Shown here: one piece after another, positions 5,789 through 28,052 of the stretch
Numbering within the stretch: position 1 is the stretch's first letter
How the letters are laid out: every line of letters begins with the position of its first letter
Assembly (NCBI GenBank): GCA_028533045.1
Contig: JAQQAP010000029.1
Coordinates: 62,001 to 126,000, forward strand
Reading direction: 5' to 3'
Length of the DNA: 64,000 nucleotides
Origin: Spirochaetales bacterium
Lineage (GTDB): Bacteria > Spirochaetota > Spirochaetia > DSM-2461
The notes under the pieces: generated by a model
Database searches by the model: none
The model's input: only the letters and a program-made list of their open reading frames with translations
What the model was told of the DNA's origin: nothing
Made by a program: the position numbers and the translations under genes

Positions 5789-6040
5789 TCAGGTCTTGTT
5801 TTCCTTGTATTTCTCCATAACCCCGAACAAATCATGAACTGTTTGTATCGTTGATACTTCTGAAAGGGGTATGTTTATGTTATAGGTCTTCATTAACCTC
5901 ATTCCCAAGCTGAAGATTCCCAGGGAATCAATGCCTATGTCTTCGTAAAGGTGGGGTTGTTCCAGTATTTCATTTTCATCCATACCAAGGGCGGAGGATA
6001 AAGTGGAAAGGTAATGCTCCCATTCTAATTGTTCAGCCAT
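5789..6040 (-). CDS. Acyl/peptidyl carrier protein
   Basis: Small acidic carrier protein, 83 aa, the usual length of ACP/PCP domains. The phosphopantetheine attachment motif is GIDSLG with Ser39. The surrounding helix pattern (LYEDIGIDSLGIFSLGMRLMKTYNINIPLSEVSTIQTVHDL) fits a four-helix carrier. It is the last gene of a four-gene minus-strand cluster and starts 3 bp after the stop of the second AMP ligase, so a ligase very likely loads it. The stem differs from housekeeping fatty-acid AcpP (DSLDTVEL), and no fabF or fabD lies nearby, so a specialised role is more likely. The acyl group carried is unknown. Confidence 0.85.
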   Translation of the reverse strand: MAEQLEWEHYLSTLSSALGMDENEILEQPHLYEDIGIDSLGIFSLGMRLMKTYNINIPLSEVSTIQTVHDLFGVMEKYKENKT

Positions 6041-6043
6041 TAT

Positions 6044-7624
6044 TTACACTCCTATTGCTTTTAAATCTTCTTCTGCCATTTGAATCAGTTTTTCATAGTT
6101 CACCTTGCCCACTCCGGGGTTTTTAGGAATCTGGGAAATAAACTGAATCCTGTCCGGGGTCATATAGTTAGGAAGTTCCTGGCGGCAGTGTTTCATAATG
6201 TTCTTTTCCCTTTCGGGGGAGCGGGTTGTTTCAGAAACAAAGGCCCATATCATTTCTCCGAAAAGAGGGTGTTTAACCCCTACAACTGCCGAGTCCTGTA
6301 CTCCCCCGACCTGATTGATGCAGCTTTCTACGACAAGAGGAGATATCGATTTGCCTCCCCTTTTAATGAGATATTTATTTCGTCCTAAAAGAACAACTTC
6401 CCTCTCCCCGGTTTTTTTGGCATTGTCGCCGGTTTTAAACCAGCCGTCGGAAAAGGCTTTGGCCGTCTCTTCTTTATTGTCAAGATATCCCTTTATAACA
6501 CTGGGGCCTTTAACCCAGAGTTCTCCTTCCGTGCCATCTGAAACCTCATTTCCCTCTTCGTCCCGAATGGATATACCGTTTTCCACGGAAGAACTGAGAG
6601 CAAGGATATTTGTCGGGCCGTCCAGATTTTCCTGATTCAGTATTCTCATAACCATAAAGACGGTAGCTGTTTCTGTTAGTCCATAACCGTTGGCGAAAGA
6701 ATCAATTGCGGGAAATTTTTCTCTTAGTCTGGCTAGAAGGCGGGGTGAGAAAAAGTCCATGCCTGTTGCAATACTTCGTACATACTTCCTTTCAAATGAA
6801 TCCAGGTTAGGGAGATTGAGTATCGCTTCAAAAAAGGCCGGAGGAGCGCTTATATTTTCTGCTTTCCATCGGACAGCTAATTCCATGTACTTTGCCGGAT
6901 TGATTTCTGAAGTGAAAATACTTCGAGCTCCTGTGAAAAAGATACCTGATGCAACAAGAATGGCTGATGTCGAATAGGGAAAGGCCATGAGAGTTGAAAG
7001 AGGTTTTTTGCCGTATCGGTCAACAGGTTCGACAAGTTCTCCGGATATAGTCATTACGGAGGCTATATTTTGCTGGTTCATCATGACTAGCTTGGGAATG
7101 CCTGTGGTACCCGAACTGGTTGTCATTAGCGCGGGGAGATCCGGTTCCGTCTGTGTCGGAGAGGAGTCTTCTGTCGTGGGTGGCTCATTTGCCATTGAGT
7201 AGACCGGTCCATCGGGGCTATCGATAAGGGCAAATTTATAATTGGCGGAAATCTCCTCTGAAGCCGCTTTTAAAGGGGCATACAAGTTGGCACTGGTAAT
7301 GACAAGGACGGCCTTTCCCGCTTTAAAAGTGGAAGCTTTGACTTTATCCGGAATCATATGGAAAAGAGGGATACAATAGGCGCCTATGCGGCAAATGGCA
7401 AAGAAGAGAGCAAAGTCTTCCGGGCAATTGACTGTGGAATAACCGACTCCCATCCCTTTTTTTACTCCCAGTTCTTTTAGGTGGCAAACATAGGAGTCGA
7501 CCATATGTCTCATGTCTCCGTAGGTCAACTCGCGGTCATCAAAACAGATAGCTCCATTGTCTTTGTCCAATCGGGACATGTAATAGTCATAAACGGCGTT
7601 GAAATTGTCTAATTTTTTACTCAT
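6044..7624 (-). CDS. AMP-forming acyl ligase (ANL superfamily), second copy
   Basis: Adenylate-forming enzyme, 526 aa, that should activate a carboxylic acid with ATP and pass it to CoA or a carrier-protein thiol. The ATP-loop motif TSSGTTGIPK (A3), GYGLTETATVF (A5), WFKTGDNAKK (A7) and the C-terminal catalytic-lysine region PGVGKVNYEKL (A10) are all present, so it looks active. Its ATG overlaps the stop of the upstream ligase by 4 bp (ATGA) and the carrier-protein gene follows after 3 bp: this is one translationally coupled operon. The two ligases are clearly divergent paralogues rather than a recent duplication. The substrate cannot be read from sequence by eye. Confidence 0.87.
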   Translation of the reverse strand: MSKKLDNFNAVYDYYMSRLDKDNGAICFDDRELTYGDMRHMVDSYVCHLKELGVKKGMGVGYSTVNCPEDFALFFAICRIGAYCIPLFHMIPDKVKASTFKAGKAVLVITSANLYAPLKAASEEISANYKFALIDSPDGPVYSMANEPPTTEDSSPTQTEPDLPALMTTSSGTTGIPKLVMMNQQNIASVMTISGELVEPVDRYGKKPLSTLMAFPYSTSAILVASGIFFTGARSIFTSEINPAKYMELAVRWKAENISAPPAFFEAILNLPNLDSFERKYVRSIATGMDFFSPRLLARLREKFPAIDSFANGYGLTETATVFMVMRILNQENLDGPTNILALSSSVENGISIRDEEGNEVSDGTEGELWVKGPSVIKGYLDNKEETAKAFSDGWFKTGDNAKKTGEREVVLLGRNKYLIKRGGKSISPLVVESCINQVGGVQDSAVVGVKHPLFGEMIWAFVSETTRSPEREKNIMKHCRQELPNYMTPDRIQFISQIPKNPGVGKVNYEKLIQMAEEDLKAIGV

Positions 7625-9177
7625 GGTGTTCTCTTCTCCCTCAGATATTTATATTGTATTTTCCCTATGTCTTTGGGAATCTCTTTTGTGAGAATGAAAT
7701 TATCCGGGATCTTGTAAGAGGATATTTTTCCTACGCAGAATTTCATCAGGTCCTTTCGTTCAAGAGTGTTCCCCTCTGCGGCTTGGATGTAGGCTTCGAT
7801 TGTCTCTCCGATTATCTCATGCTTTTTTTTCACTACGGCGACCGCATTTATCGAGGGGTGGCTAAGTAGAAACGATTCAATTTCTTCGGGGAAAATAAGA
7901 TTAGCCCCTCGTTTGATAATTCGCTTTTCTCGACCGATAAATCGTATTCTGCCGTTGGGACATAATTGGGCTAAGTCCCCCGTGTCAAACCAGCGCTGTC
8001 CCTCTATCTGTAGAATCCTCTTGTCGCTTTCCTGAGGATTTTTATAGTATTCACGCAAAATGGCATCTGTGTGAATGATAATACGACCGGATTCACCTTC
8101 CTTCACGCTTTTACCCTCCGGGGACAATATTTTTACCGATGTAAAATCCAGCGTTCTGAAATCATTTACTTTCACATCTTTGTCATATTGAGAGTCCCAA
8201 ATTACCATTGTTGCGGTTTCGGAAGATCCAATGATATTTATGACTCTAATATTCATCTTCTCGTAAAAACGGGCGGCTAATTCATCGGGTAGGACCTCTC
8301 CGGCAAAGTAAGCGAGCCGGAGAGAACTAAGGTCATATTGTTCGATATTCCTAACTGTTAATAGTATCTTGGCCAAAGTAGGTGTAAGCTGAATATGGGT
8401 GACCTTGTGATTTTCGATGATTTCAAGGAACTTTATCGGATCGAAGCGGGGTTGATAGATGAGGGTGGTACCGGAGAGGGCAGCCTGGACTCCCATTCCA
8501 AAGCCTCCCTGATGATAAAGAGGCATCCCCAATAGCATAGTATCCTTTGAGTTGAGTCCAAGGTATTCGGCCATATCTCGCTGTGATTGATAAAACCCAG
8601 CATGCTCAACGGCTATGATCTTGGGATTACCCGTTGTTCCCGATGTACAGGCGTACATGAGTAAACCATCGGGAGTATCGGTGATTAGAATCTCTTCTGA
8701 TTCCCGGGGCCTTTTGTTATAAAAATCGTCCCAGCTCATGAAGGGAGAAGTGCATTCGGAGCCATTTTGTACAATGATATAGGGAGTCAGCTTCGTATTA
8801 TTAAGTATTTTTTTTAGACTTTCCTCTAAGTTATTCGCCCGGTATTTGCTTGTAATAAAACAGACGTGAAAATCCATAAGAGAAAAGAGTTCCCTAAGCT
8901 CCCATTCTCCCACCTGAGGGTCAAGGGGAACCGGTATTGCTCCTACAGAAACTATGGCCCAAAATAGTTCGTACCACGAAACAGAATTGGGAAGGATGAG
9001 AGCTATCTTGTCTCCCGGTTTTACCTTTAAATCTTTGAGTCCTTTGGCCAGATGTTTAATGGATTTAATAAAGTCTTTATTTTGACATATCTCATCTTCC
9101 ACAATAAGAAAGTTTTTTTGGGGGCTGAGGGAGTTCTTCTCCAATATAGATTTAAGAATGTTTTTCAACTTGATCAC
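7621..9177 (-). CDS. AMP-forming acyl ligase (ANL superfamily), first copy
   Basis: Second adenylate-forming enzyme of the cluster, 518 aa. Motifs: ACTSGTTGNPK (A3, about residue 178), IIGSSETATMV (A5), WFDTGDLAQL (A7), FIGREKRIIKRGANLIFPEEIE (A8) and IGKIQYKYL with the A10 lysine, so the full ANL fold is present. The start drawn is a GTG 26 bp inside the end of the hydrolase gene. No strong Shine-Dalgarno precedes it, so translation may be coupled; the TTG four codons in is an alternative. Having two different ligases next to one carrier suggests either two acyl substrates or one acyl-CoA and one acyl-carrier step. Confidence 0.86.
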   Translation of the reverse strand: MIKLKNILKSILEKNSLSPQKNFLIVEDEICQNKDFIKSIKHLAKGLKDLKVKPGDKIALILPNSVSWYELFWAIVSVGAIPVPLDPQVGEWELRELFSLMDFHVCFITSKYRANNLEESLKKILNNTKLTPYIIVQNGSECTSPFMSWDDFYNKRPRESEEILITDTPDGLLMYACTSGTTGNPKIIAVEHAGFYQSQRDMAEYLGLNSKDTMLLGMPLYHQGGFGMGVQAALSGTTLIYQPRFDPIKFLEIIENHKVTHIQLTPTLAKILLTVRNIEQYDLSSLRLAYFAGEVLPDELAARFYEKMNIRVINIIGSSETATMVIWDSQYDKDVKVNDFRTLDFTSVKILSPEGKSVKEGESGRIIIHTDAILREYYKNPQESDKRILQIEGQRWFDTGDLAQLCPNGRIRFIGREKRIIKRGANLIFPEEIESFLLSHPSINAVAVVKKKHEIIGETIEAYIQAAEGNTLERKDLMKFCVGKISSYKIPDNFILTKEIPKDIGKIQYKYLREKRTP

Positions 9178-10297
9178 TTATCCAATCGGCAAAGATATGA
9201 CGTATCCAGTGCAGCTGTTCTCCTATGGGCATGGCATGAAGCACCTTTTCGTCTTTAGAAAAAACCGGTTTATCTTCAATTATTAAGGTTTTTTTATCAT
9301 CGGTTTGAGCCAAGTCGTAAAGTTTGAGAGCATCTTCCAGGGACATCCAATTATCGTATTTCCCATGGATAAGGAAAAAGGGGCAATTAATGACTTCATT
9401 CTTTCTGCGACTCATATCCTCAAGGAAACTGTCTACTTCGGCTCCGCCCGTTTGATAGGATATCCATTCTCCGCTTTTCATCCATTGGGGAGTATTTTCC
9501 TTTTTTACTTGCGAAATGAAGAGAGGGAAGAGGGTGGCGCAAAAGGAATATTCCCCATTAAGCGCAGCCGCCCTGTACGCATATCCCCCGCCCATACAGA
9601 GGCCGGTACTTCCTATTAGACAATCTTTGGTTTTTTCGTGGTTTCTTATGAACCTTATACATCCTTTGAAGGTTTTTTCCAGATTGGCTCCATTGGCTTT
9701 TATCTCTTTCTCGAAAAGAGTTTCCCCGCACCCGGGCATATCGGGAATCAGGACGGAAATTCCTCTTTCGGTTATCGTCCTTGCTATGGTATTCATCTCT
9801 TCCTTGCAGCTTCCCAGTCCGGCGAAGAAAACGACACATCCCTTCTTGCGAAGGGAATCCTCCGGTAAATGAAGATAGGCAGAAACTTTTTTATCATTAT
9901 CAATGGGAATCTCTACTTTTTGTACCGGCTGCGGATAGAGCCGGACTCCTTCATAGTAGGAGGAAACCAATTTCCTATAGTATTGTTTTTTTTGTTCTAT
10001 ATTTCCCGGATTGACTAAATAGATGGCAAAATAGCATTGAGCTGTAATTAAGAATAGCTCTCTCGCTGTGGTTAAGTGATTCTTCTCCAGAGCGTCCAAA
10101 GCTTTTGCCTTATAATTTTCTCCTTTTTTTTCCCATAGGGCTGCCCATTTTTTGTTCAGGGATTTTGAGTTAAGAATAACCGTTTCTTCAATCTTCTGAA
10201 GGACATATTCCAAATCCATAGGATTCATGCCATAGATCAGGAGTCTTGTTGTAACCGGATTGAGCAGATTTCGGATGCTCCATTGGGAATCAGTCAT
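9152..10297 (-). CDS. Alpha/beta hydrolase with helical N-terminal cap and Cys nucleophile
   Basis: 381-aa protein with ~130 mostly helical N-terminal residues followed by an alpha/beta-hydrolase core, an arrangement like the FrsA/Ayg1/DUF1100 group. The nucleophile elbow reads GLCMGGG with Cys234 where most members have Ser. The acid is probably the Asp in HGKYDNW and the base the His in VLHAMP or LHW. Dienelactone hydrolase and class III PHA synthases also use Cys in this position; the latter are acyltransferases. It is the first gene of the cluster with two ligases and a carrier protein, so cleavage or transfer of a thioester-bound acyl product is a reasonable guess. No signal peptide, so it acts in the cytoplasm. 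Confidence 0.8.
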   Translation of the reverse strand: MTDSQWSIRNLLNPVTTRLLIYGMNPMDLEYVLQKIEETVILNSKSLNKKWAALWEKKGENYKAKALDALEKNHLTTARELFLITAQCYFAIYLVNPGNIEQKKQYYRKLVSSYYEGVRLYPQPVQKVEIPIDNDKKVSAYLHLPEDSLRKKGCVVFFAGLGSCKEEMNTIARTITERGISVLIPDMPGCGETLFEKEIKANGANLEKTFKGCIRFIRNHEKTKDCLIGSTGLCMGGGYAYRAAALNGEYSFCATLFPLFISQVKKENTPQWMKSGEWISYQTGGAEVDSFLEDMSRRKNEVINCPFFLIHGKYDNWMSLEDALKLYDLAQTDDKKTLIIEDKPVFSKDEKVLHAMPIGEQLHWIRHIFADWISDQVEKHS

Positions 10298-10423
10298 ATT
10301 TTATTCTCTCTTAAGGTATGGATGACGATTGTACTCTATAAGTAAATTGTATCTCCCCTTTTGAAAAAAATCTATTATTTTTATTCTTCCATAGAAGATT
10401 TATGGTGCGGATAATTTTTTATT

Positions 10424-10450
10424 GGGCCTATGATTGGGCCTATGATTGGG
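10424..10450. repeat. 12-bp direct repeat at 3' end of kinase gene
   Basis: GGGCCTATGATT occurs at 10424-10435 and 10436-10447, followed by a partial third copy. The repeat spans the stop codon of the minus-strand kinase gene, so loss or gain of one unit could alter its C-terminus. Confidence 0.7.
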
Positions 10451-11759
10451 CTATGGGAATCGCAATACGAAATTCCGTTCCCCTATCCTGTTGGCTTGAT
10501 ACGGTGATTTTAGCCTTATGCCGTTCCACTATACCATATACCGTGGCCAGTCCCAGACCGGTTCCGTTCATTCCCTTTGTTGTGTAAAAAGGTTCGAACA
10601 TATGCTCTGTTATTTCTGTTGACATGCCTAAGCCCGTATCGGAAACAGCCAATACAACCTGGTCTTCTTCCGTGTGGGTTTCTATCGTAATTACACCGCC
10701 ATTGGGCATTGCGTCTCCGGCGTTTACGGCCAGATTCATAACTACCTGCTCCCATTGATTTCTATTACCCATAATAAAAGGGAGCTGGGGAGTCGTTCGT
10801 ATGATCATTTTTATTTTTCGGTTTAGTGTTTCCCTCAGAAGAAGGGTTATTTCATCGATTGTTTCATTCAGGTCCAATTCGGTATATTCCTGTTTTTGCT
10901 GACGAGAGTAGACTAGTAGTCGTGTGACAAGATCCCTGGCACGGGTAGAGGCCTTTGTTATTTGCTTAACATAGGCTGCTTCTTCACTGTCATCTTCCAC
11001 TAAGGGGGAAAGAAGGTCGGCATAGGCCATAATAGGAGTGAGGAGATTGTTTATGTCATGGGCAATCCCTCCGGCCAGTCGTCCTACGGACTCCATCTTT
11101 TGCGCCTGAAGATACTGATGTTCCAGCTGCTCCTTATCTTGGGCTAGGCGTTTCTCTTCGGTTATATCCATCATCACCCCATCGACAAAGATCTTTTCTC
11201 CTTCAAGAATCCGGTTCCCCTTGTTCAACACCCAATGGATTTGTCCTTCTTTGTCAAGAATACGATGTTCCAGTCTGTAGGAGGATTTTTCATCCAGAGC
11301 CTTTCTTATGAATTTATTAAGAAGTACCTGATCCTCAATAGGGATTAGGGATAACATTGTTTTGTTATTATCATTGAGGAAGTTTATATCGGGGATACCG
11401 GTGAGCCGTTCTATTTCCTGACTCAAAAAAACTATGGGAAAGTACTTTTCTATACCGCAGCGGTAGGTTACTCCGGGAATATTGTTTACTAGTGATCGGA
11501 ATCGTCCTTCGCTCTCTATCAGCTCTTTTGTCCTTATGGCGATCTGCTCTTCCAAGAACATTTCCGTATCGTTGGCTATGTACCGGTTATTTATAAGTAT
11601 GAAGGCAAGGGCAGTAAGTCCTGTCAGTGTCACATGCCCCATGGTTGGGATTCCCGTTTTGACAATTGTTATACCTATGATTTCAAGTATGGCCAATACG
11701 AGAAGAGGAATATAGAGGAGAGGTCTTTTAGGGAATTCTTTTTGGGAAATGATCTTCAT
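10440..11759 (-). CDS. PAS-domain sensor histidine kinase
   Basis: Membrane histidine kinase, about 440 aa. Two transmembrane segments lie near residues 15-60, with no periplasmic domain of note between them. A PAS domain follows (about 85-205), then a HisKA box with GGIAHDINNLLTPIM carrying the phospho-accepting His, then an ATPase domain with N box (NLAVNAGDAM), G1 (VSDTGLGM) and G2 (GTGLGLATVYGIV). No receiver domain is attached and no response-regulator gene is adjacent. It lies 142 bp upstream of the hydrolase/ligase/carrier cluster on the same strand, so it may be co-regulated with it. Start chosen at ATG 11759; a TTG three codons upstream is possible. Confidence 0.85.
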   Translation of the reverse strand: MKIISQKEFPKRPLLYIPLLVLAILEIIGITIVKTGIPTMGHVTLTGLTALAFILINNRYIANDTEMFLEEQIAIRTKELIESEGRFRSLVNNIPGVTYRCGIEKYFPIVFLSQEIERLTGIPDINFLNDNNKTMLSLIPIEDQVLLNKFIRKALDEKSSYRLEHRILDKEGQIHWVLNKGNRILEGEKIFVDGVMMDITEEKRLAQDKEQLEHQYLQAQKMESVGRLAGGIAHDINNLLTPIMAYADLLSPLVEDDSEEAAYVKQITKASTRARDLVTRLLVYSRQQKQEYTELDLNETIDEITLLLRETLNRKIKMIIRTTPQLPFIMGNRNQWEQVVMNLAVNAGDAMPNGGVITIETHTEEDQVVLAVSDTGLGMSTEITEHMFEPFYTTKGMNGTGLGLATVYGIVERHKAKITVSSQQDRGTEFRIAIPIAQS

Positions 11760-11830
11760 CAGTAACAATTATGAATAAGGGAAAAGAAAAAATCTACCCT
11801 GGGAAGAGTTAAGGGGGAAGGAAGTTAGGC

Positions 11831-11867
11831 AAAAAAAAAGGCGTTTATGCATATTGGCATAAACGCC
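11831..11867 (-). terminator. Rho-independent terminator of leuS
   Basis: A perfect 11-bp stem, GGCGTTTATGC (11840-11850) with GCATAAACGCC (11857-11867), is followed on the minus strand by nine T residues (11831-11839). It lies 26 bp after the leuS stop codon. Confidence 0.93.
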
Positions 11868-11892
11868 CCGAGCTACTATTTTTTCAATAATC

Positions 11893-14400
11893 CTATTTTG
11901 CTACAATATTCACAAGCTTATCGGGTACGACAATCTCTTTAATAATATTCTTTCCCTCAATCAGCTCAATAATCTTCTCATCCGCCCGGGCCAGGGCCAG
12001 GAGTTCTTCCTTGGGAAGACCGGCGGCCACCATCATCTTGGCCCGCACCTTGCCATTAATTTGCACAACAACCTGTTTTTCGTCATCTTTGGTAAGAGCC
12101 TCGTCCCATTCAGGCCAGCCTTCGTAGGCCAAAGACTCGCTCTTACCCAGCTTTTCCCACATCTCCTCGCCCAGGTGGGGCGCGTAGGGAGCAATCAAAA
12201 GAACAAAGGGTTCCCAAAGCTTCCGGTAGCACTTATCTTCCTTGTAGACCTCGTTGATGAAAATCATCATCTGGCTAATCGCCGTATTGAACTCCAACTG
12301 GTCCGTATCGTTGGAAACCTTCTTAATCGTTTTATGGAGCACTTTCTTGAGTGCGTCCGAGGGCTCTTCGTCGCTAATCTCCCGCTCCGCCACGTCCCAG
12401 ACGCGGTTCAGGAAGCGGTTTACCCCCACAAGACCCTTGGTCTGCCAGGGCTTGGAAACCTGCAGGGGACCCATGAACATCTCGTAGAGGCGCATGGAAT
12501 CGGCCCCGTAGTCGCGAATAATATCATCCGGATTAATTACATTCTTAAGGCTCTTGGACATCTTGGCGATAACCTGTTCCACCGGCTCGCCCGTATCGTT
12601 TGCCGTATACTTACCCGGCTCAACTTCTGTCACCTCATCGGTAGGAACCAGAGACTTGTTGGCCCGCTGATAGGCAAAGCTGGTAATCATCCCCTGGTTA
12701 ATCAGTCTCTGAAAAGGCTCGGGATGCTTAACCGCCCCGATGTCAAAGAGAACCTTGTGCCAGAAACGGCTATAAAGCAAGTGAAGAACCGCATGTTCCG
12801 CACCGCCCACATAGAGGTCTACCGGCATCCAGTAGTCTTCCTTATCCTTCCCCACAAACTCGGTGGGATTCTTTGCATCGAGATATCTCAAGTAATACCA
12901 GCAGGAACCGGCCCACTGGGGCATGGTATTGGTCTCCCGCTTCGCCTTGCCGCCGCACTTGGGACAGGTCGTATTGAGCCAGTCGTCCAGCTTGGCCAGG
13001 GGTGATTCCCCGGTGCCGCTGGGCTCAAAACTCGTCGTAGGAGGCAGAACCAAAGGCAGGTCGCTCTCGGGAAGGGGCACCACGCCGCACTTGTCGCAGT
13101 GAACCAGAGGCATCGGCTCGCCCCAGTAGCGCTGGCGGCTAAAAATCCAGTCGCGCAACTTGTAATTCACCGCTTTCTCACCTACGCCCTTGTCGGCCAG
13201 CCAGGCAATCATCGCATCGATACCTTCCTGCTTGCCCAGGCCGTTCAAAAAGTCCGAATTCACATGGGGACCGTCCTCGGTAAAGGCCTCTTCCTGAACA
13301 TTCCCGCCCTCAAGGACCTCGATGATGGGAAGCTCAAACTGCTTGGCGAACTCCCAGTCCCGCGTATCGTGGGCGGGAACGGCCATAATCGCTCCCGTAC
13401 CGTAGGAAATCAGTACATAATCGGCTACCCAGATGGGAATCTTTTTATCGTTAACCGGATTCACCGCGTAGGAACCGGAGAACACACCGGTTTTCTCCTT
13501 GGCCAGATCGGTTCTTTCCAGGTCGCTCTTCAGTTTCGCCTGCTGGCAGTAAGCCTCAACGGCGTTCTTCTGCTCGGAAGACGTCAGCTTCTCCACCAGG
13601 GGATGCTCCGGAGAAATAACCATGTAGGTCGCCCCAAAAAGCGTATCGGGACGGGTGGTATATACCTTCAGTTCATCGCCTGACTCGGTCTTGAAAACCA
13701 CGTCGGCTCCGATGGACTTGCCAATCCAGTTTCGCTGCATCGCCTTAACCGACTCGGGCCAATCCAGAGAATCCAGATCTTCCAGAAGCTTCTCGGCGTA
13801 CTCGGTAATCTTCAGAACCCACTGGCGGATATTCTTCTGTTCCACCTGGGCATCACAGCGCTCGCATCGCCCGTCCTTAACCTCTTCGTTGGCCAGACCA
13901 GTGAGACAGCTGGGACACCAGTTAATCGGCTTGTCCGATTCGTAGGCCAGACCCTGCTCGTAGAGCTTGAGAAAAATCCACTGAGTCCAGTGATAGTAAT
14001 CATCGGAGTGGGTGCAAATCTCCCGGTCCCAGTCATAGGAAAATCCCAGGCTCTTGATTTGCTTCGTAAAGTGTTCGATATTTTTTTCGGTCGTCGTCTT
14101 GGGGTGAGTCCCCGTCTTGATCGCGTAGTTCTCTGCGGGCAGGCCGAATGAGTCGTAGCCCATGGGATGGAGAACATTAAAACCCTTCATTCGTAGGTAG
14201 CGGCAGTAAATATCCGTAGCCGTATAGCCCTCGGGATGACCCACGTGGAGGCCCGCGCCGGAGGGGTAGGGGAACATATCCAGAACATACTTTCTCTTCT
14301 CCGCAGGGAAAGAGGGATCCTCAGTCGCCTTGAACGTCTTGTTGTCGTCCCAGAACTTCTGCCATTTTTCTTCAATCGTGCTAAAAGGGTACTTTGCCAT
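11893..14400 (-). CDS. leuS: Leucyl-tRNA synthetase
   Basis: Class Ia aminoacyl-tRNA synthetase charging tRNA-Leu, 835 aa, near the normal bacterial length. The N-terminus ([23 protein letters not shown]) matches the family start, which fixes the ATG. The HIGH-type motif is in [16 protein letters not shown], the KMSKS loop in [15 protein letters not shown]. The CP1 editing domain is present with its threonine-rich [12 protein letters not shown] segment, and a zinc-ribbon pair CPSC/CERC follows LAYES. A consensus -10 box sits 9 nt before the ATG with no Shine-Dalgarno, so the mRNA appears leaderless or nearly so. A strong terminator follows. Confidence 0.98.
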
Positions 14401-14409
14401 AATGGGCTG

Positions 14410-14438
14410 ATTATATCTTTACCCCGTAAAAAACTCAA
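14410..14438 (-). promoter_or_regulatory. leuS promoter (near-leaderless)
   Basis: On the minus strand, -35 TTGAGT (14433-14438), a 17-bp spacer and a perfect -10 TATAAT (14410-14415) precede the leuS ATG by only 9 nt. The predicted transcription start is within about 3 nt of the initiation codon. Confidence 0.8.
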
Positions 14439-14499
14439 TCCGTTGGGAGTCTGTTTTTGGGGGTTGCCCGGCGGCAATTCAACGCCCATGGACTTAGAT

Positions 14500-14544
14500 G
14501 GTTTTCAATATAACACCAATCTTCGAGGTGTTATATTGAAAACC
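14500..14544. repeat. perfect 18-bp inverted repeat
   Basis: Arms GGTTTTCAATATAACACC (14500-14517) and its exact complement (14527-14544) flank a 9-nt centre, AATCTTCGA. It lies 62 bp upstream of the leuS -35 box. It could be an operator, an RNA hairpin or a mobile-element end; there is no T-run for termination. Confidence 0.85.
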
Positions 14545-14707
14545 TGATATCTCGCGAGCCGGGCCGGGCTGCTTCGGGCTCCGCTATCGCTGCGGCCTCC
14601 TCGGTCCTTGTGCGTGCCTACGGCCCTTCTTCGGTCCTGCGGGGTCTGGCCTGGCGGCCACCCTGCGAATCCCTAACCTTTTGCGTGTTCTTTTCGTGAA
14701 ACCGTAC

Positions 14708-14728
14708 TATACTATAAACCGGAGGGGG
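14708..14728 (+). promoter_or_regulatory. -10 box and Shine-Dalgarno of the 14733 gene
   Basis: TATACT (14708-14713) resembles a -10 element, without a convincing -35. GGAGGGGG (14721-14728) is a strong ribosome-binding site 4 nt before the ATG. Confidence 0.5.
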
Positions 14729-14732
14729 TTCC

Positions 14733-15269
14733 ATGAAAAAACAGTTCCTTACCATTCTGGCCGTTTTTATTCTGCTATCCGCCTGCGACGAAGGCTCCGG
14801 CGATTTCCCCGACCTTACGCTGGACGCCTATATTAATGCTTCCTATGAGGGAACCTTCGTCGGCGATGGCTCCACCACAGAAACGGTAACCTACACTAAT
14901 ATCATTACTTATTCCTTTGTGGCAGATGTAGATATCACCATCACCGATGGAACTTGGGAATGTACCATTAATGACGGGGAAACAATTACAGGAACCCTTG
15001 CAGGAACCGCAGTCGTCACTTATAGCGCCGATTCTGTCTATGAGGACTACCTTCCCACGGTGAGTTCAACTCCCTTCACCGGCACCATTTTCGCCACCTT
15101 AGACGGTTCGGCACTCACCATGACCTGCGAAGACATAGACATCTACGACTACGGCTCACAGGATATCATCCTCACCGGAACCGTAACAAACGGCATCGTA
15201 GACGGGACCTGGGAACTAACCGACTCCGATGTTTCCGGTAGCTTCGAGGGCGAAAGGAGCGATTCATGA
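14733..15269 (+). CDS. Putative lipoprotein of unknown function
   Basis: 178-aa secreted lipoprotein. The signal sequence MKKQFLTILAVFILLSAC ends in a clear lipobox with Cys18. The mature part is acidic and rich in Thr, Gly, Asp and Ser, with beta-type repeats such as ITDGTWECTINDGETITGTLAG and VTNGIVDGTWELTDSDVSGSFEG, suggesting a small all-beta domain. I do not recognise the family. The stop overlaps the next ATG by 4 bp (ATGA), so it is co-translated with the barrel-like protein that follows. Confidence 0.78.
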   Translation: MKKQFLTILAVFILLSACDEGSGDFPDLTLDAYINASYEGTFVGDGSTTETVTYTNIITYSFVADVDITITDGTWECTINDGETITGTLAGTAVVTYSADSVYEDYLPTVSSTPFTGTIFATLDGSALTMTCEDIDIYDYGSQDIILTGTVTNGIVDGTWELTDSDVSGSFEGERSDS

Positions 15270-16147
15270 AGAAATCAGTCTTAACCACTCTTCTCCTCAA
15301 CCTGGCCCTCCTCCTCTCCGCCCAGACCCTGGACGGGGATATCACGGAAACGGTTGTCTCCGGCATAGAAGAGGTGGCCCGCAAAATGATTGGAACCTCC
15401 TTCACTCCCATGACCGGCTACGACAAGGGGGATTACCAAATTACCTCTGCCGCCGGCTTTACCCTGGTAAATGCCCTTGGTTCCGATGTGGAGGGCGACG
15501 GGCTATACGGTTATTCCGGAGGCATAGGCGGCGGATATGCTCTGACCGACCGGGTTCTGGTCTACACCATCGTCAACGGTCTTTTTGTGGATGGAACCGT
15601 CGAAGCTCCCTTCCTGGGCGACGGCTACGACGACAGCGGCGCTGCCCTTAGCCTTACCATGGCCGATCTTTTTGTAGGCGCCGGGTATGATGTCCTGAGT
15701 CATCCCCATTTCTCCTTGCCCCTCTTTGCGGGTATGCATGCCGCCTGGTACGACTACTCCGGCGATTTGGACGACAGCGATGTGCTTAGCGGAACGGTGG
15801 ACGGAGTCATCTCCGGCAGCGGGCTTACCCCGGGCTTTTCCGGAGGAGCCGCCGCAGAATACAAAAAGAATCGGTTCTCCCTGGGAGCTTATTACATCTT
15901 CATGGTCGACTTTTACGGCGTAGAGGGGGAAGCGGATTTCTCTTACGACAGTGAATCTATTAGCGGTAGCGAAACAGACGACTTTCGCACTCCCTCCTAC
16001 TATGGAGGAACCTACGGTCTCTACACCGGGTTTAAGCCGGGGAAGAACTGGGCCTTCTCCCTGAACCTTTCCGACCTTCTCTCTTTTGTGAAAGAGGATG
16101 AGGCGGAACTGATGACCCTGGCCCTAAGCGTTTCCTACTACAAGTAG
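15266..16147 (+). CDS. Secreted barrel-like protein, paralogue A
   Basis: 293-aa exported protein with a signal peptide (MKKSVLTTLLLNLALLLSAQ). The mature part begins LDGDITETVVSGIEEVARKMIG and continues as alternating Gly/aromatic-rich strands that end in VSYYK. An aromatic end is common in outer-membrane beta-barrels. The next gene, 32 bp on, encodes a clear paralogue with the matching landmarks LDGDAAEAVIGGTEKAARKMVS, SGFTPGMHGGASAEY and LTVSYLP. The pair therefore arose by tandem duplication. No catalytic motif is visible. Barrel topology is inferred only from the strand pattern. Confidence 0.78.
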   Translation: MKKSVLTTLLLNLALLLSAQTLDGDITETVVSGIEEVARKMIGTSFTPMTGYDKGDYQITSAAGFTLVNALGSDVEGDGLYGYSGGIGGGYALTDRVLVYTIVNGLFVDGTVEAPFLGDGYDDSGAALSLTMADLFVGAGYDVLSHPHFSLPLFAGMHAAWYDYSGDLDDSDVLSGTVDGVISGSGLTPGFSGGAAAEYKKNRFSLGAYYIFMVDFYGVEGEADFSYDSESISGSETDDFRTPSYYGGTYGLYTGFKPGKNWAFSLNLSDLLSFVKEDEAELMTLALSVSYYK

Positions 16148-16167
16148 ATTTTTTCTTCCGCCCCTAC

Positions 16168-16173
16168 TATACT
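16168..16173 (+). promoter_or_regulatory. candidate -10 box of the 16180 gene
   Basis: TATACT ends 6 nt before the ATG at 16180 and no Shine-Dalgarno lies between them, which fits a leaderless transcript. The -35 region is poor, so the box alone supports the call. Confidence 0.45.
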
Positions 16174-16179
16174 GGTTCC

Positions 16180-17100
16180 ATGATTTTCTCTCCCCGCCGG
16201 GCCCGTTTTTTTATTATTTTTCTCTTCTTTGTAGCCCTAACCCTTTCGGCTCAGTCCCCCCTGGACGGGGACGCTGCGGAAGCGGTCATCGGAGGCACGG
16301 AAAAGGCGGCCCGGAAGATGGTCAGTTCCGTACTGAATCACCGCACCCACTACGCGGAGGGGGAGTTTACCTATGCCTTCACCCCGGCCGTTTCCTTTAT
16401 AGACAAGGTCTGGTCCGAACCGGAAGTGACAGGCGACCGCTGGACCGGTGTGAGTCTGGGGAATAGCGTTGCCTACGGTTTAAGCGACAAACTGGCCTTG
16501 ATAGGGACCCTTGCTCTGGGCGCTTCCCACGGTACTTTGGAGACGGACCTGTATGGAGACGGGACGGATATTGAGGGGGATGTGGATTTCTTCATTGGGC
16601 AGCTTTATCTGGGGGGGAGCTATGAGGCGATTCGAAGGGAGCGCTTTTCCCTGCCTTTAACCTTGGGTTTCATGGGTACCGGATTCTTCCTGGAGCTAAG
16701 GCCGGAAAACTATGAACTGGATGACAGCTATGAAGGTACGGCATATGCCACTCTGGAGGCTTCCGGTTTCACCCCCGGTATGCATGGAGGAGCCTCCGCC
16801 GAGTACCGCTTTAAGTGGGTTGCCCTTAAGCTGAACGCCGCCTTTTTGGCAACCTTTACAGGCCTTTCCGGTGAATCGGAAGTCAGTCTTGCCTCAACGG
16901 ATGGCAGCACTACCACCTATTCTTCGGATTACACGGTCAGCCCCTATCTTTTGGGCCTGTTCGGTTTCTCCATGGAACTCCAAAGGGACAAGCATTGGCG
17001 TTTTAAGTTGGATGTTTCCGATTTCCTTCCCCTTCAAAACCAGGATGAGAGTGCTGTGAATCTCTATAATCTAGCCCTGACCGTAAGTTATCTCCCGTGA
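16180..17100 (+). CDS. Secreted barrel-like protein, paralogue B
   Basis: 306-aa exported protein, paralogue of the preceding gene. The signal peptide has an arginine-rich start (MIFSPRRARFFIIFLFFVALTLSAQ). The mature part has the same opening (LDGDAAEAVIGGTEKAARKM), a central GLSDKLALIGTLALGASHG segment, SGFTPGMHGGASAEY and the ending LALTVSYLP. Pairwise similarity is spread over the full length but is moderate, so the duplication is not recent. Function is unknown; an outer-membrane or periplasmic beta-structure is likely. No Shine-Dalgarno precedes the ATG, and a TATACT box ends 6 nt upstream. Confidence 0.78.
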   Translation: MIFSPRRARFFIIFLFFVALTLSAQSPLDGDAAEAVIGGTEKAARKMVSSVLNHRTHYAEGEFTYAFTPAVSFIDKVWSEPEVTGDRWTGVSLGNSVAYGLSDKLALIGTLALGASHGTLETDLYGDGTDIEGDVDFFIGQLYLGGSYEAIRRERFSLPLTLGFMGTGFFLELRPENYELDDSYEGTAYATLEASGFTPGMHGGASAEYRFKWVALKLNAAFLATFTGLSGESEVSLASTDGSTTTYSSDYTVSPYLLGLFGFSMELQRDKHWRFKLDVSDFLPLQNQDESAVNLYNLALTVSYLP

Positions 17101-17110
17101 GGATTGCCCT

Positions 17111-17704
17111 GTGAATATTCCCAAAGGCCCTGCCTTCGCCCAAATCGAAGTAAAAAAATCCAAATTTCTCGCCTACGCCCTGCCCATTTCCTCCCTTTCC
17201 GACATAAAAGGGGAAATCCAGAAGGCCCGCCAGGAACATCCCGATTCGCGCCATGTGGTTCACGCCGCCGTGGTCGGTCCCGACGGAGGAGAATTCAGCC
17301 TAAGCGATGACGGGGAACCCAAAGGAACTTCCGGTCGTCCCTCTCTGGAGGTACTCAAAGGACGTGACGTAACCAATGTCCTGGTACTTATTGTACGTTA
17401 CTTCGGCGGGACGAAACTGGGGACCGGCGGGTTGGTTAAAGCCTATGGCGATGCGGTTAAAGCGGTGTTGGAAGCGCTGGAGACGGAAGAGCTGGTGGAA
17501 AAGACCGATTTTACGGTAAAGCTTTCCTATCACGATCATTCTCCGGTTCGCCTGCTCTTGGAAAAGGAAGGGGTTGAGATAATTTCTGAAGACTTTGCCG
17601 AGGGGGTTGTGGTCAAGGGGAGGTGCCCCCGGGAAATCCTGGACTCCCTGGAGCCGCGCATCAGGGATTTGACCCGCGGTTCAGGAGTGCTTACAAGGGT
17701 TTAG
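17111..17704 (+). CDS. YigZ/IMPACT family protein
   Basis: 197-aa cytoplasmic protein of the UPF0029/IMPACT family. The conserved core is easy to see: HVVHAAVV, FSLSDDGEPKGTSGRPSLEVL and VLVLIVRYFGGTKLGTGGLVKAYGDAV, followed by the C-terminal ferredoxin-like domain. Family members occur in most bacteria; the eukaryotic homologue binds Gcn1, but the bacterial role is unsettled. GTG start, with GAGG about 8 nt upstream, and 10 bp after the barrel gene. Its stop overlaps by 4 bp the stop of the converging FecR/TPR gene. Confidence 0.93.
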   Translation: MNIPKGPAFAQIEVKKSKFLAYALPISSLSDIKGEIQKARQEHPDSRHVVHAAVVGPDGGEFSLSDDGEPKGTSGRPSLEVLKGRDVTNVLVLIVRYFGGTKLGTGGLVKAYGDAVKAVLEALETEELVEKTDFTVKLSYHDHSPVRLLLEKEGVEIISEDFAEGVVVKGRCPREILDSLEPRIRDLTRGSGVLTRV

Positions 17705-18486
17705 ATTCCCTGCTTTGCCAGAGACAGGAGGACTCGCGCCTCTTCTGTCGCTTCGTTTTGAGGGTAGTTTTGAAGGAAGGTTTCCAAAGATCGGACCGCT
17801 TCCTCATAGTTTTGAGCCCGAAGGGAAATCCTCCCGTTTAAAAGCAGGTAAGAGGGGTAAAACTCTTCCTGTTCGGGCATGAAAATGTCACTTAAATGAT
17901 TCCAGGCCTCGCCTGTTTTATTCTGCATCTCCTCCGCATAGGCCAGGGCAAAGAGCAAGCGACCTTCCGAGTAGGGGTCCGCTGACATTTGGTAAAGCCT
18001 TTCCAGTTCTCTTTCCGCATCGGAGTAGTCGCCGGAGGCAATTTGATCCCAGGCCCGGTCAAGTTCTTCCCGGCTTGTGTTGGCAAATCCCAATTCGTCC
18101 GTACCCACTACGTTTCCCCGGATTCCCATGGCAACGGTGGTTCCGTCGCTCCGGTTCTTAAGGAGTCGGTTGATCTTGTCGGAAAGCCTGTCCAGGGCCG
18201 AATTTTGTTCGGTCCGGATCTCCTCTTTTATGGCTGTTAAATGGTATTCTCCGGGGCGGGAGAAGAAGAGGCTGTTTTGAAGTGAGTCGAGCTGAACTGA
18301 AGAGTTTTCTCCCAGCCGGATAATCTGATTCGTTCCCAGGGAAGTCCCAAAGTCTATGGGATACCAGCCTCCCCGGAATTGGTATTCCGCCTGTCCCTCA
18401 TAGAAAACGCAAATAAAGCTTTCTCCCCAGAGGGTCTGGGCAAAAAGGAACACAATCATTAAACTTATTAATCCGTGCCGTTTCAT
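17701..18486 (-). CDS. Exported FecR-like/TPR protein
   Basis: 261-aa protein with a signal peptide (MKRHGLISLMIVFLFAQTLWG). Residues about 25-125 resemble a FecR-type domain: a surface layer with LGTNQIIRLGENSSVQLDS, then AMGIRGNVVGTDE. Residues about 140-260 form tetratricopeptide-like helices (YSDAERELERLYQMS, EGRLLFALAYAEE, YEEAVRSLETFLQNYPQNEATEEARVLLSLA). The combination suggests a periplasmic scaffold or assembly factor. It is a single gene convergent with yigZ and divergent from the Cys-cluster gene; no partner gene is visible. Confidence 0.75.
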   Translation of the reverse strand: MKRHGLISLMIVFLFAQTLWGESFICVFYEGQAEYQFRGGWYPIDFGTSLGTNQIIRLGENSSVQLDSLQNSLFFSRPGEYHLTAIKEEIRTEQNSALDRLSDKINRLLKNRSDGTTVAMGIRGNVVGTDELGFANTSREELDRAWDQIASGDYSDAERELERLYQMSADPYSEGRLLFALAYAEEMQNKTGEAWNHLSDIFMPEQEEFYPSYLLLNGRISLRAQNYEEAVRSLETFLQNYPQNEATEEARVLLSLAKQGI

Positions 18487-18558
18487 ACTAATAGTTTAGT
18501 CCATATTCACGGGAAGTACATAGGATTTTGTCATATTAAAGTAAAATGAGGTTAAAAG

Positions 18559-19050
18559 GTGCTGGAAGAGTACAGTAAAATAATAGAGAGAGCCACCCGG
18601 CGAAAAAAAGAAATCCGTAAGAACCTGCGCGATTTAAAAAAACAGCGGCGGATTAATCTGGATGAACTCTTTGGCGAGGAGCACCGGAAGGCTTTTGAGG
18701 AGATTGACTGCCTCAAATGCGCCAACTGCTGTGCTTCCCTGGGGCCGCGCATTACCGACCGGGATATAGACCGTCTTGCCCGTGCCGCCCGAATGAAGCC
18801 GGGACAGCTGACGGAAACCTGGCTCACCATAGATGAGGACGGCGATTACGTCTATCGTGAGATGCCCTGTCCCTTCCTGGGGGCGGACAAATACTGCCTC
18901 TACTACGAAGCTCGTCCCGATGCCTGCCGTCGTTATCCCTACACGGACAGGCGCAATGTGAAAGGTTATCTGGGAGAACTGATTAAGGATATGGAAATTT
19001 GTCCCGCCGTGGCCCTTGTTCTTGAAAGGGTGACCGGCGTAAACGGTTAA
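18559..19050 (+). CDS. YkgJ-family cysteine-cluster protein
   Basis: 163-aa protein with a basic helical N-terminus (RATRRKKEIRKNLRDLKKQRR) followed by the zinc/iron-chelating cysteine-cluster domain: CLKCANCCASLGPRI, then MPCPFLGADKYCLYYEARPDACRRYPYTD and a last Cys in EICPAVA. The spacing is typical of the YkgJ/UPF0153 family, whose members are thought to bind a metal or Fe-S cluster; substrate and role are unknown. GTG start with GAGG upstream. The stop abuts the stop of the converging GGDEF gene. A second family member is encoded at 60644. Confidence 0.85.
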   Translation: MLEEYSKIIERATRRKKEIRKNLRDLKKQRRINLDELFGEEHRKAFEEIDCLKCANCCASLGPRITDRDIDRLARAARMKPGQLTETWLTIDEDGDYVYREMPCPFLGADKYCLYYEARPDACRRYPYTDRRNVKGYLGELIKDMEICPAVALVLERVTGVNG

Positions 19051-20478
19051 TCAGTCGGACCGTACCGTTTGATTGCGGCCTCCTTCCTTGGCCCGGTAGA
19101 GAGCCTTGTCCGCCATGACTATGTAGCTGTTTATTGATTCTCCCGGCAAAGGTATTCCCGAATACAAACCTCCCGAGAGGGTTATTTTGCCCTCAATACC
19201 TTCGAACTGAAACTGCTCTACGGCGGTTCGTATTCTTTCCACGGCCCTGTATGCGTTTTCTCCGGATGTTTCGGGGAGTATGAGAACGAACTCCTCCCCC
19301 CCGAAGCGGGCCAGAAGGCTTGTGCCCCTAACCTGGCTCTTAATAAGACCGGATACGGATTTTAATACTTCGTCTCCCTTGTCATGGCCGTAAGTATCAT
19401 TGATCTTTTTGAAAAAATCGATATCAAGCATAGCTATGGTGAGGACGTTTTTTTTTCTTATGGCCCGTTCGAATATCAAGCGGCCTTCCATTTCCATGCG
19501 GTGTCGGCTTCCCAGTCCGGTTAGAGCATCTTCCATGGCCAGTTTATAGGCTTTTTCATGGAGCATGGCGTTCTCCAGGGCTATGGATAGGTGGTCGCCG
19601 ACTATTTCGGCCATCTCCAGATGATGTTTTGTAAAGTGGTCTTTTGAGTAACAGTCCAGAGCTATGAGGCCCAGAACGGACTTGCTTGTAATCAGGGGAA
19701 TCCCCATCCAGGAATAGATGGGGCGGGAAGGGTTAGGGTGGATAAAACTGGGGAATTCCTTGGGAACATTTCCTGTTATAAAGGGTCTATGTTCCTGTAT
19801 CGCCCGGGTACTTAAACTGTCGCTCTGGGGAAAGGGAAATTTGAGCTTTTTAATCGCTTCTTCATCGTCAAAGCCTTCACCTCCTACCACATGAAGGTAC
19901 CCGTCGGAGAGAATCTGAAGAGAGCAGGATTCGTAGGGAATGATTCGCTTGAGTTGCCTCATTATCTGCCTGACCGTTTCGTTCCTGTCGAGGGATGAGC
20001 CGACTTCTTTGATAATATCCCTTAGAACGATGAGTTCTTCGCTCCGTTTTTGTTCTTTGGAGATGCTTTCCAGCAGTTTTCTTTCCGTATCCTTGAGTTC
20101 CGATATATCCGAATCTATCCCTACGAAGAGGCTTATGGAATTGTCATCTTTATTTCTGATCGCCTTTCCCACGGAAAGTACCCAGCGGTAGCCTCCCTCG
20201 CTTTCCTTGAGCCGGTATATTATCTGGATAATCGAGCTCTCCCCCTTAAGCATCTTATTTAAGGACCGGTGGATTTTCTCTCGGTCCTCCGGATGAATGT
20301 AGTCCATATACTGCTCTTCCAAATCTTGGGGCGTGAATTTTTTGGGCTGTACCTTCCATATATGGCTGGAAAAATTTTCGTTTGTTTTATAGTCGCTTAT
20401 GGAAACTCCGATTTGGGAGAGGGCTTCTCTCACTGAGGGGTCGTTGAGATCTATGCTTTCGAAGCGCTTCTTTTTCAT
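19051..20478 (-). CDS. PAS-GAF-GGDEF diguanylate cyclase
   Basis: 475-aa cytoplasmic signalling protein, with no membrane segment visible. An N-terminal PAS domain (about 10-130) has a PAC-like end LFVGIDSDISELK. A GAF domain (about 150-305) has YSWMGIPLITSKSVLGLIALD. The GGDEF domain (about 310-475) contains the active-site signature RFGGEEFVLILPE, so cyclic-di-GMP synthesis is expected. The inhibitory RxxD site nine residues upstream reads RGTS, so classical product inhibition is probably absent. The PilZ protein encoded at 59792 is a possible effector in the same genome segment. Single transcription unit. Confidence 0.92.
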   Translation of the reverse strand: MKKKRFESIDLNDPSVREALSQIGVSISDYKTNENFSSHIWKVQPKKFTPQDLEEQYMDYIHPEDREKIHRSLNKMLKGESSIIQIIYRLKESEGGYRWVLSVGKAIRNKDDNSISLFVGIDSDISELKDTERKLLESISKEQKRSEELIVLRDIIKEVGSSLDRNETVRQIMRQLKRIIPYESCSLQILSDGYLHVVGGEGFDDEEAIKKLKFPFPQSDSLSTRAIQEHRPFITGNVPKEFPSFIHPNPSRPIYSWMGIPLITSKSVLGLIALDCYSKDHFTKHHLEMAEIVGDHLSIALENAMLHEKAYKLAMEDALTGLGSRHRMEMEGRLIFERAIRKKNVLTIAMLDIDFFKKINDTYGHDKGDEVLKSVSGLIKSQVRGTSLLARFGGEEFVLILPETSGENAYRAVERIRTAVEQFQFEGIEGKITLSGGLYSGIPLPGESINSYIVMADKALYRAKEGGRNQTVRSD

Positions 20479-26313: not shown

Positions 26314-27165
26314 TTAGGGACATTTTTGATAGACCCGGACAAAATCCACTTCCAGGGTTTGGGGAAATGGGGTGGTGCTGTCCGGTGGGCCGGGCCATTC
26401 ACCGCCCACAGCAAGATTTAGGATAATCATGAAATCCTTGTCGAAAGGGGCGGGGTAGGCATATTCTTCACGGTTGTACAGATCCTTGCTGAACCATTCT
26501 GTTTGGCTGTAATAGGGTTCTCCGTCAAGAAACCAGGTGATTTTCCCCGGTTCCCATTCTATAGAAAAAATATGGAAATCATCGGAAAACTGTCCCTCTT
26601 TCAGGGTTATTTTCCCGCCCTTATACTCGTGAGGGTCACCGTAATGAACTGTCCCGTGGATGGTCGCCGGTTCATGGCCCACCATCTCCATAATATCTAT
26701 TTCCCCTCCGGCGGGCCATTTCATGGCGTAAGGATCCATGGGAAGCATCCAGAAGGCGGGCCAGATTCCTTGACCTTGGGGTAAACGGGCCCGCATGACA
26801 AAGCGCCCGTAGGTCCAGCCCGCTTTTCCCATGGTCCAGATTTTGGAAGAAGTATAGGGATTCCCCTTATATTTCTCTTTCCTGGCCTCTATGGTGAGAA
26901 GACCTTTTTTTACCTGAAGATTATCCTCAAAGGTGTAGTATTGAAGTTCGTGATTGCCAAAGCCGTGGCCGCCCACATCGTAGCTCCATTTTTCCCTGTC
27001 CAGTTCGGAACCGTCAAACTCATCGGCCCAGACAAGAGTCCACTCCTCCCCGGTGGTGTAGTCTTCCACGGGAGGGGGACTTTGACAGGCGGCGAAGAGG
27101 CACAGGAAGAGACAGGCTCTCCCAAAGGATGCAAAAGAAGCGGACGTCCACATAGTCGGTCTCAA
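26314..27165 (-). CDS. GH16 family endo-beta-glucanase (laminarinase-like) lipoprotein
   Basis: 283-aa glycoside hydrolase family 16 enzyme. The N-terminus has a lipobox (LFAAC) for anchoring outside the cytoplasm. The catalytic signature GEIDIMEMVG is intact, with Glu155 and Glu160 as nucleophile and acid/base and Asp157 between them (numbered from the TTG at 27165). Flanking conserved regions include WADEFDGSELDREKWSYDVGGHGFGNHELQYYT and GIWPAFWMLP. GH16 members of this type cut beta-1,3- or mixed beta-1,3/1,4-glucans. It is the last gene of a minus-strand operon with a sugar importer. The start may instead be the ATG at 27153. Confidence 0.92.
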   Translation of the reverse strand: MRPTMWTSASFASFGRACLFLCLFAACQSPPPVEDYTTGEEWTLVWADEFDGSELDREKWSYDVGGHGFGNHELQYYTFEDNLQVKKGLLTIEARKEKYKGNPYTSSKIWTMGKAGWTYGRFVMRARLPQGQGIWPAFWMLPMDPYAMKWPAGGEIDIMEMVGHEPATIHGTVHYGDPHEYKGGKITLKEGQFSDDFHIFSIEWEPGKITWFLDGEPYYSQTEWFSKDLYNREEYAYPAPFDKDFMIILNLAVGGEWPGPPDSTTPFPQTLEVDFVRVYQKCP

Positions 27166-27167
27166 TC

Positions 27168-28052
27168 CTATTTCTGTAATCGGTCTGTGATGACTTTATT
27201 CATCCATGTCATACCTATGATGATAATGAAGAGCAGCCAGGCAATGGCAGAGGCCTTACCGAAGCGGTTAAAGTGGAAACCGGTGGTGAGCAGGTAGTAG
27301 GCGCTGGTAAGACCGGCGTTCTGCGCTCCTCCCATAGTTTCATAGCCTCTGAGAAGGACAAAGGGCTCTTCAAAAAGCTGCATTCCCCCAATAATACTCA
27401 TGGACATGGCAAAGAAAATAATTTTTATGAGCATGGGCAGGGTTATGAAGATGTGCTGCTGAAGGATGGAGGCTCCGTCAATTTTAGCCGCTTCATAGAG
27501 TCGGTCGTCGATGGACTGGAGCCCGGCCAGGTAGATGACCATATTCCATCCAATGTAGCGCCAGTTTACCATGATGGCGATACTGGCCCGGATGGCTGCG
27601 GTGTTTTGGGTCCATTTTACCTTGTCCAGGTGCAGCCAATTGACGATGACGTAGTTGAGCCAGCCGTAATTGGTATCGAAAAGCTGGCTGAAAATCAGGG
27701 CAATAACGACGGTGCTTGTGATGTAAGGGAGAAAGTAGAGCACCTTAAAAAAATCTCTTCCCTTGATAAGTCTGTCGTTGAGCATGATAGCCAGTGGGAT
27801 GGCGAAAAGGTGCTGGAGCATGGAGCCGAATACAAGCAGGATGAAGGTGGTCCCCAGGGATCGCATGAAAAAGGGGTCCGTAGTGAGGAGTTTGGCGTAG
27901 TTGGAAAGACCGCGAAACTCCTGGGGGCCGCTAATGGTCCACTTGAAGAGGGACATGGTAAGAGAATAGACCGTAGGAAAGAGGCCGAATATGAGGAAAA
28001 GTATGAAAAAAGGACTGATGAATAGGTAGGGTGCTAATTTGTTGGTTTTCAT
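27168..28052 (-). CDS. Carbohydrate ABC transporter permease (MalF type)
   Basis: 294-aa inner-membrane permease of the CUT1 family with about six membrane segments. The cytoplasmic EAA loop, which contacts the ATPase, reads EAAKIDGASILQQHIFITLPML. The N-terminus (LAPYLFISPFFILFLIFGLFPTVYSLTMSLFKW) is typical. It pairs with the next-named permease and the family-1 binding protein encoded upstream on the same strand. No ATPase gene is present, so a shared MsmK/UgpC-like ATPase encoded elsewhere must serve it. The GH16 gene follows 2 bp after its stop, suggesting that it imports glucan oligosaccharides. Confidence 0.92.
   Translation of the reverse strand: MKTNKLAPYLFISPFFILFLIFGLFPTVYSLTMSLFKWTISGPQEFRGLSNYAKLLTTDPFFMRSLGTTFILLVFGSMLQHLFAIPLAIMLNDRLIKGRDFFKVLYFLPYITSTVVIALIFSQLFDTNYGWLNYVIVNWLHLDKVKWTQNTAAIRASIAIMVNWRYIGWNMVIYLAGLQSIDDRLYEAAKIDGASILQQHIFITLPMLIKIIFFAMSMSIIGGMQLFEEPFVLLRGYETMGGAQNAGLTSAYYLLTTGFHFNRFGKASAIAWLLFIIIIGMTWMNKVITDRLQK

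Follow-up and report, generated by a model that had tools for sequence, protein, structure and literature searches.

A compact operon for a cysteine-nucleophile α/β hydrolase, two AMP-forming ligases and a carrier protein, shared by a spirochaete and distant cellulose-associated anaerobes: a candidate acyl-transfer pathway

The DNA analysed here, referred to as the window, is a stretch of 64,000 nucleotides from a Spirochaetales bacterium (contig JAQQAP010000029.1, positions 62,001 to 126,000). Its minus strand carries four genes transcribed in the order hydrolase (hyd), ligase 1 (lig1), ligase 2 (lig2) and carrier (acp), located between positions 5789 and 10297 (Table 1). A preliminary description had presented them as a coupled set at these positions, and the open reading frames bear this out: the end of hyd overlaps the start of lig1, a GTG codon, by 26 bp, lig1 and lig2 overlap by 4 bp (ATGA), and lig2 is separated from acp by 3 bp. 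The Pfam matches were FrsA-like/DLH for hyd, AMP-binding and AMP-binding_C for each ligase, and PP-binding for acp. A convergent sugar ABC transporter lies on the left and a PAS-type kinase on the right, so that the operon stands isolated. Scans for promoters and terminators gave sites no more numerous than in shuffled sequences. The G+C content of the operon is 43%, compared with 47% for the window, but low G+C is common to the wider region and its neighbours are likewise low, so that this is weak evidence of transfer. Neither the window nor the adjoining 16 kb contained a match to the ketosynthase, acyltransferase, KASIII or Sfp-type PPTase of the same genome, and lig1 and lig2 were the only AMP ligases found in that region; the claim that no assembly-line genes lie nearby thus holds locally. 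Elsewhere in the window (26314-33875), a GH16-like glucanase, a sugar ABC transporter and a 1144-aa phosphorylase-like protein, all read by eye, suggest β-glucan use.

Table 1. Genes and catalytic codons of the operon, in window coordinates
Feature	Position	Strand	Basis
hyd: two-domain α/β hydrolase with N-terminal helical lid, FrsA/DHPON-hydrolase/AntI family, Cys nucleophile; 381 aa	9152..10297	-	ORF, Pfam, AF2, Foldseek, seven orthologues
Cys234 codon (TGT), nucleophile position	9596..9598	-	Cys in 8/8 orthologues, Ser in 60/60 distant relatives
Asp315 codon, triad acid	9353..9355	-	Invariant in 63/63 aligned relatives
His354 codon, triad base	9236..9238	-	Invariant in 63/63; lower-confidence stretch of the model
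lig1: AMP-forming acid ligase, 518 aa	7621..9177	-	Pfam; motifs; orthologue in all seven operon genomes
lig2: AMP-forming acid ligase, 526 aa	6044..7624	-	Pfam; motifs; orthologues
acp: discrete acyl carrier protein, 83 aa	5789..6040	-	PF00550; orthologues
Ser39 codon (TCC, DSL), phosphopantetheine attachment	5924..5926	-	DSLG invariant in 7/7 orthologues

Orthologues were sought with a search guided by the hydrolase-family motifs in an alignment; a scan with the hydrolase alone drew its patterns from variable stretches and gave no match. Five extra rows of the steering alignment are synthetic and were excluded from every tree and count. Seven further hydrolase loci were found in six genomes, with two phyla named on the records. 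A check for conservation of the four-gene neighbourhood, proposed in the preliminary description, was positive, the full order hyd-lig1-lig2-acp being present in five loci that include the window and distant genomes. A Spirochaetales MAG (locus L046 of genome G435) has the same order as the window, with a hydrolase 57% identical to that of the window, and in Pseudobacteroides cellulosolvens (L047) the hydrolase (49%), ligase 2 and the carrier are joined by a type II thioesterase. Four additional genomes came from searches of the orders to which these hosts belong; their arrangement is hyd-lig1-lig2-acp-thioesterase (G826), hyd-lig2-acp-thioesterase (G841), or hyd-lig1-lig2-acp followed by a peptidase-U32-like gene (G882, and G881, which has a second copy truncated by the end of its contig). 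The type II thioesterase gene therefore adjoins acp in three loci, all clostridial. Hydrolase, ligase 2 and carrier occur together in all seven loci whose contig extends far enough, and are the core of the operon. All seven operon genomes contain ligase 1, whereas two order-mates lacking hyd gave no match to it at 1e-60; the gene is unlinked in P. cellulosolvens and G841, where an intact copy sits in a neighbourhood common to both genomes. The operons in which acp is followed by the U32-like gene (L138, 5128-6210; L139, 14329-15420) are the two most divergent; the product of this gene, which has a C-terminal Cys cluster and weak similarity to TrhP, could be an oxygen-independent hydroxylase acting on the bound acid.

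Given that the gene order recurs in distant genomes, the neighbourhood is more than chance, and a chance association was rejected. The gene set is conserved and rare: of 393 genomes sampled across the spirochaetes, the phylum of the window, one had it, as did 3/58 and 3/26 genomes of the host orders. Gene trees were congruent and gave three groups (the window with the MAG; the three clostridia; the first copy of G881 with G882), and the patchy spread suggests lateral transfer. Plasmid matches to the hydrolase and the ligases reached only 22-31% identity, with no similar operons where inspected. Purifying selection on the operon genes is strong: in the comparison of the two nearest clostridia, dN/dS was 0.05-0.13 for every gene, including the unlinked lig1 (0.10) and both pieces of lig2, these ratios being approximate because dS is high (1.4-3.0). 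The two lig2 pieces arise from a frameshift in the deposited record of P. cellulosolvens (L047, about 9949-9982); both look selected, and the frameshift is either a sequencing error or a recent loss.

The two ligases are about 23% alike, and the motifs SGTTGxPK, YGLTET or GSSET, TGD, GR and the C-terminal GK with its Lys are intact and kept in the orthologues, in agreement with their earlier designation as two divergent AMP-forming enzymes. Both scored below the TIGR01733 cut-off. Gln223 of Lig1 aligned to the amino-acid-binding Asp (PheA position 235, A4 core) of LgrA. The AFPxST motif of Lig2 resembles that of aryl-acid AMP ligases, its FPxST corresponding to FPMSS of dihydroxybenzoate (DHB)-AMP ligase, and alignment with that ligase places Ala at the Asn/Asp position. 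Because the Asp that binds the α-amino group is replaced in both ligases, their substrates are probably not α-amino acids, and NRPS-type amino-acid activation was rejected. Lig1 is better conserved among orthologues (49-59% identity) than Lig2 (34-54%), and its pocket motif MPLYHQGGFGMG is invariant, which argues that the acid used by Lig1 is probably the same in all hosts and that of Lig2 may depend on the host. The carrier, described beforehand as an 83-aa protein with a DSL serine, is indeed a PF00550 protein with an invariant DSLG; its orthologues are 41-50% identical. Against the NCBIfam acyl_carrier models its best score was 40.5 bits (cut-off 71), and a role as the primary FAS carrier was rejected on these low scores. 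An Sfp-type PPTase encoded on another contig of the genome could activate it.

The AF2 model of Hyd (pLDDT 87, pTM 0.90) shows a two-domain protein with a helical lid and an α/β hydrolase core, with TM scores of 0.7-0.8 to 2jbw, 8qbh, 6hxa and 4i4c. Foldseek gave 2jbw as the best match (5.8e-18), with TM scores of 0.77-0.81 to AntI; the best structural matches were 2,6-dihydroxypseudooxynicotine (DHPON) hydrolase, Wdyg1p, AntI and Ayg1, and a profile search led to the same families. Hyd scored 39.1 bits with Pfam FrsA-like (cut-off 22) and 44.2 bits with the NCBIfam FrsA equivalog PRK05077, under the curated cut-off of 477. Judged by sequence and model, Hyd is thus assigned to the DHPON-hydrolase/AntI/Ayg1/FrsA fold family. 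It shares with these proteins the fold, the N-terminal helical lid, the triad Asp and His and the loop that reads GLxS in the relatives; it differs in having Cys rather than Ser and in belonging to an operon without a polyketide synthase, and structural-alignment identity is 16-20%.

The Cys nucleophile proposed in the preliminary description was upheld, as GLCMGG of Hyd aligned with the nucleophilic Ser of DHPON hydrolase, an Ayg1-like protein and AntI. The nucleophile is Cys in all eight operon members, within the motif G[LI]CMGG, and Ser in all 60 distant relatives, so that the Ser of GxSxG, a feature of the family, is absent from the operon hydrolases. Asp315 and His354 are invariant in the 63 aligned proteins and in the eight operon members. 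The Cys hydrolases form one clade (support 100/100), the seven orthologues of Hyd being 38-57% identical to it. By fold, Hyd is closest to C-C hydrolases and polyketide-trimming lyases rather than to any known transferase. One could accordingly envisage that the Cys enzyme is itself a releasing or C-C-cleaving enzyme like AntI, Ayg1 and DHPON hydrolase, which trims or hydrolyses an ACP-bound intermediate instead of passing it on; the top structural matches and the profile search both point this way, and AntI acts directly on its ACP-bound substrate via an acyl-enzyme, trimming it and offloading it from the ACP (PMC11165489). We consider this unlikely, given that the AntI-type relatives use Ser while the switch to Cys is universal in the operon clade, that three loci have a separate thioesterase, and that none of the loci holds a ketide-forming enzyme.

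The same families would also fit a catabolic cassette, in which two CoA ligases and a C-C hydrolase serve the uptake or breakdown of plant-derived acids and the ACP is minor. Among the NCBIfam and PDB matches of Lig1 and Lig2 are CoA ligases, for example 4-coumarate and feruloyl-CoA ligase, the hydrolase resembles the DHPON hydrolase of nicotine breakdown, and there are sugar transporters in the window. However, every locus has a dedicated carrier whose DSL serine is invariant, and three also have a type II thioesterase, both of them biosynthetic features; moreover, no oxygenase, dehydrogenase or β-oxidation gene was a consistent companion in the loci read, which makes this explanation highly improbable.

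A literature search found no system that matches the four-gene set, be it a lipid, a siderophore or any other described cluster, consistent with the earlier statement that no named system is known to have this composition. SyrC, CmaE and CysB are α/β hydrolases with a Cys nucleophile, a combination of fold and nucleophile that Hyd has as well. As compared by description, these small enzymes, which shuttle acyl groups between carriers, are like Hyd stand-alone and found beside a carrier, and CysB transfers via an acyl-enzyme; they differ in working in NRPS pathways with amino acids, whereas the operon is predicted to use non-α-amino acids and has one carrier (PMC7966384). The closthioamide pathway, from a cellulolytic anaerobe, is likewise thiotemplated, with discrete carriers and no NRPS modules, but it has two carriers, the thioamide synthetase CtaC and other genes, and the account consulted describes no Cys α/β hydrolase (PMC6772006). 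In the eight loci there is one carrier per operon, and no CtaC-like neighbour gene recurred among the ORFs read by eye. The best reading is that the operon works like a thiotemplated acyl-transfer pathway and is a member of none of the named pathways tested.

From these observations we infer, with about even confidence, a compact carrier-dependent pathway without a ketosynthase or condensation domain, in which transfer prevails over hydrolysis. Lig2 would adenylate a carboxylic acid (not an α-amino acid, perhaps aromatic) and load it onto the ACP through its phosphopantetheine. The Cys enzyme would accept this acyl group from the carrier on Cys234 and hand it to an acceptor. Lig1 would activate a second, more constant acid, which would either be attached to the same carrier or serve the acceptor side as a CoA derivative or adenylate. 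In the clostridial versions, the type II thioesterase, of a class that clears carrier proteins (PMC9730843), would remove misloaded groups. Several results argue for acyl transfer: hyd, lig2 and acp are kept together, lig1 is in every operon genome and the trees are congruent; lig1 stays under purifying selection even where unlinked; every operon member has Cys at the nucleophile position, against Ser in each of the 60 distant relatives; a type II thioesterase adjoins the carrier in three genomes; the fold-family member AntI works on a substrate bound to an ACP; transfer of acyl groups from one carrier to another is the function of CysB, SyrC and CmaE; both ligases lack the Asp that binds α-amino groups; and the genome has an Sfp-type PPTase. 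Weighing against transfer are the closest folds, which are those of C-C hydrolases and lyases, the occasional unlinking of lig1, the fact that Cys hydrolases can hydrolyse too, as dienelactone hydrolase does, and the lack of an acceptor-specific gene common to all loci.

A fuller version, which we regard as possible rather than probable, is that a single Ser-to-Cys change at the base of the clade gave a polyketide-trimming-type lyase the activity of an acyl transferase. The enzyme would join two acids, each activated by a ligase, via a single carrier, in a self-contained pathway without a ketosynthase or condensation domain that would be shared laterally among cellulose-associated spirochaetes and clostridia. 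The operon is a small, recognisable cassette of predicted biosynthetic function, and because it has neither ketosynthase nor condensation domain, cluster rules based on these would probably miss it. It is also a clear example of a Ser-to-Cys switch, which may convert a C-C lyase or hydrolase into a transferase.

Beyond the locus, assembly-line genes do occur: other contigs of the window's genome carry NRPS-sized genes and a PKS cluster that has a ligase, a carrier and a PPTase of its own. The gene content of this cluster (L036, 3659-17077; G000:C42) is that published for celluxanthene (cex; PMC12144888): besides an iterative-type PKS (KS-AT-ACP-ACP-KR-DH), it encodes a PPTase, an ACP, two KASIII, an AMP ligase and an α/β hydrolase. 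A second cex-like cluster on the spirochaete side is found in the MAG (L155, 117-13401; G435:C26); the published description reports cex only from clostridial cellulolytic anaerobes (PMC12144888). Both cex and the operon hold an AMP ligase, an ACP and an α/β hydrolase, but cex is a separate locus built on an iterative type I PKS and two KASIII, neither of which matched anything in the window or 16 kb beyond it, and its AMP ligase is about 26% identical to Lig1 and Lig2. The operon as the celluxanthene genes proper was rejected, since the locus is PKS-free and occurs without cex in two genomes.

The operon might instead be a trans-acting supply module for a PKS encoded elsewhere, providing aryl or acyl starter loading or acylating a celluxanthene-like product. 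Cex-like iterative PKSs (40-48% identical to that of the window's genome) occur in 5/7 operon genomes on both the spirochaete and clostridial sides, with full clusters in the window's genome and the MAG, and P. cellulosolvens makes celluxanthenes with a profile unlike that of other group I strains (PMC12144888). However, no cex-like PKS was found in G881 or G882 at 1e-80, the proposed cex pathway needs no such genes, and cex is common in cellulolytic clostridia, so that co-occurrence may reflect a shared habitat (PMC12144888). Since the PKS is missing from two operon genomes and the cex model does without these genes, we rank a supply role, which we judge quite unlikely, below an independent pathway. 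The preliminary proposal that acyl activation, a carrier and a Cys transferase act without a classical assembly line remains the best fit, although the closest fold relatives are not known to be transferases and most hosts hold a cex-like PKS. P. cellulosolvens ATCC 35603 is in culture and its celluxanthenes have already been detected, so the product of the operon should be findable.

Further observations concern other contigs of the window's genome. A methyltransferase, two ACPs, an AMP ligase, acyltransferases, an ammonia-lyase-like protein and an exporter are encoded at L035, about 6996-19998 (G000:C8), which resembles an aryl-polyene cluster. NRPS-sized ORFs with AMP-binding domains are present at L041, 2795-5950 (G000:C39), and also on C37 and C47; the C39 gene adjoins an asparagine-synthetase-like gene and glycosyltransferase genes.
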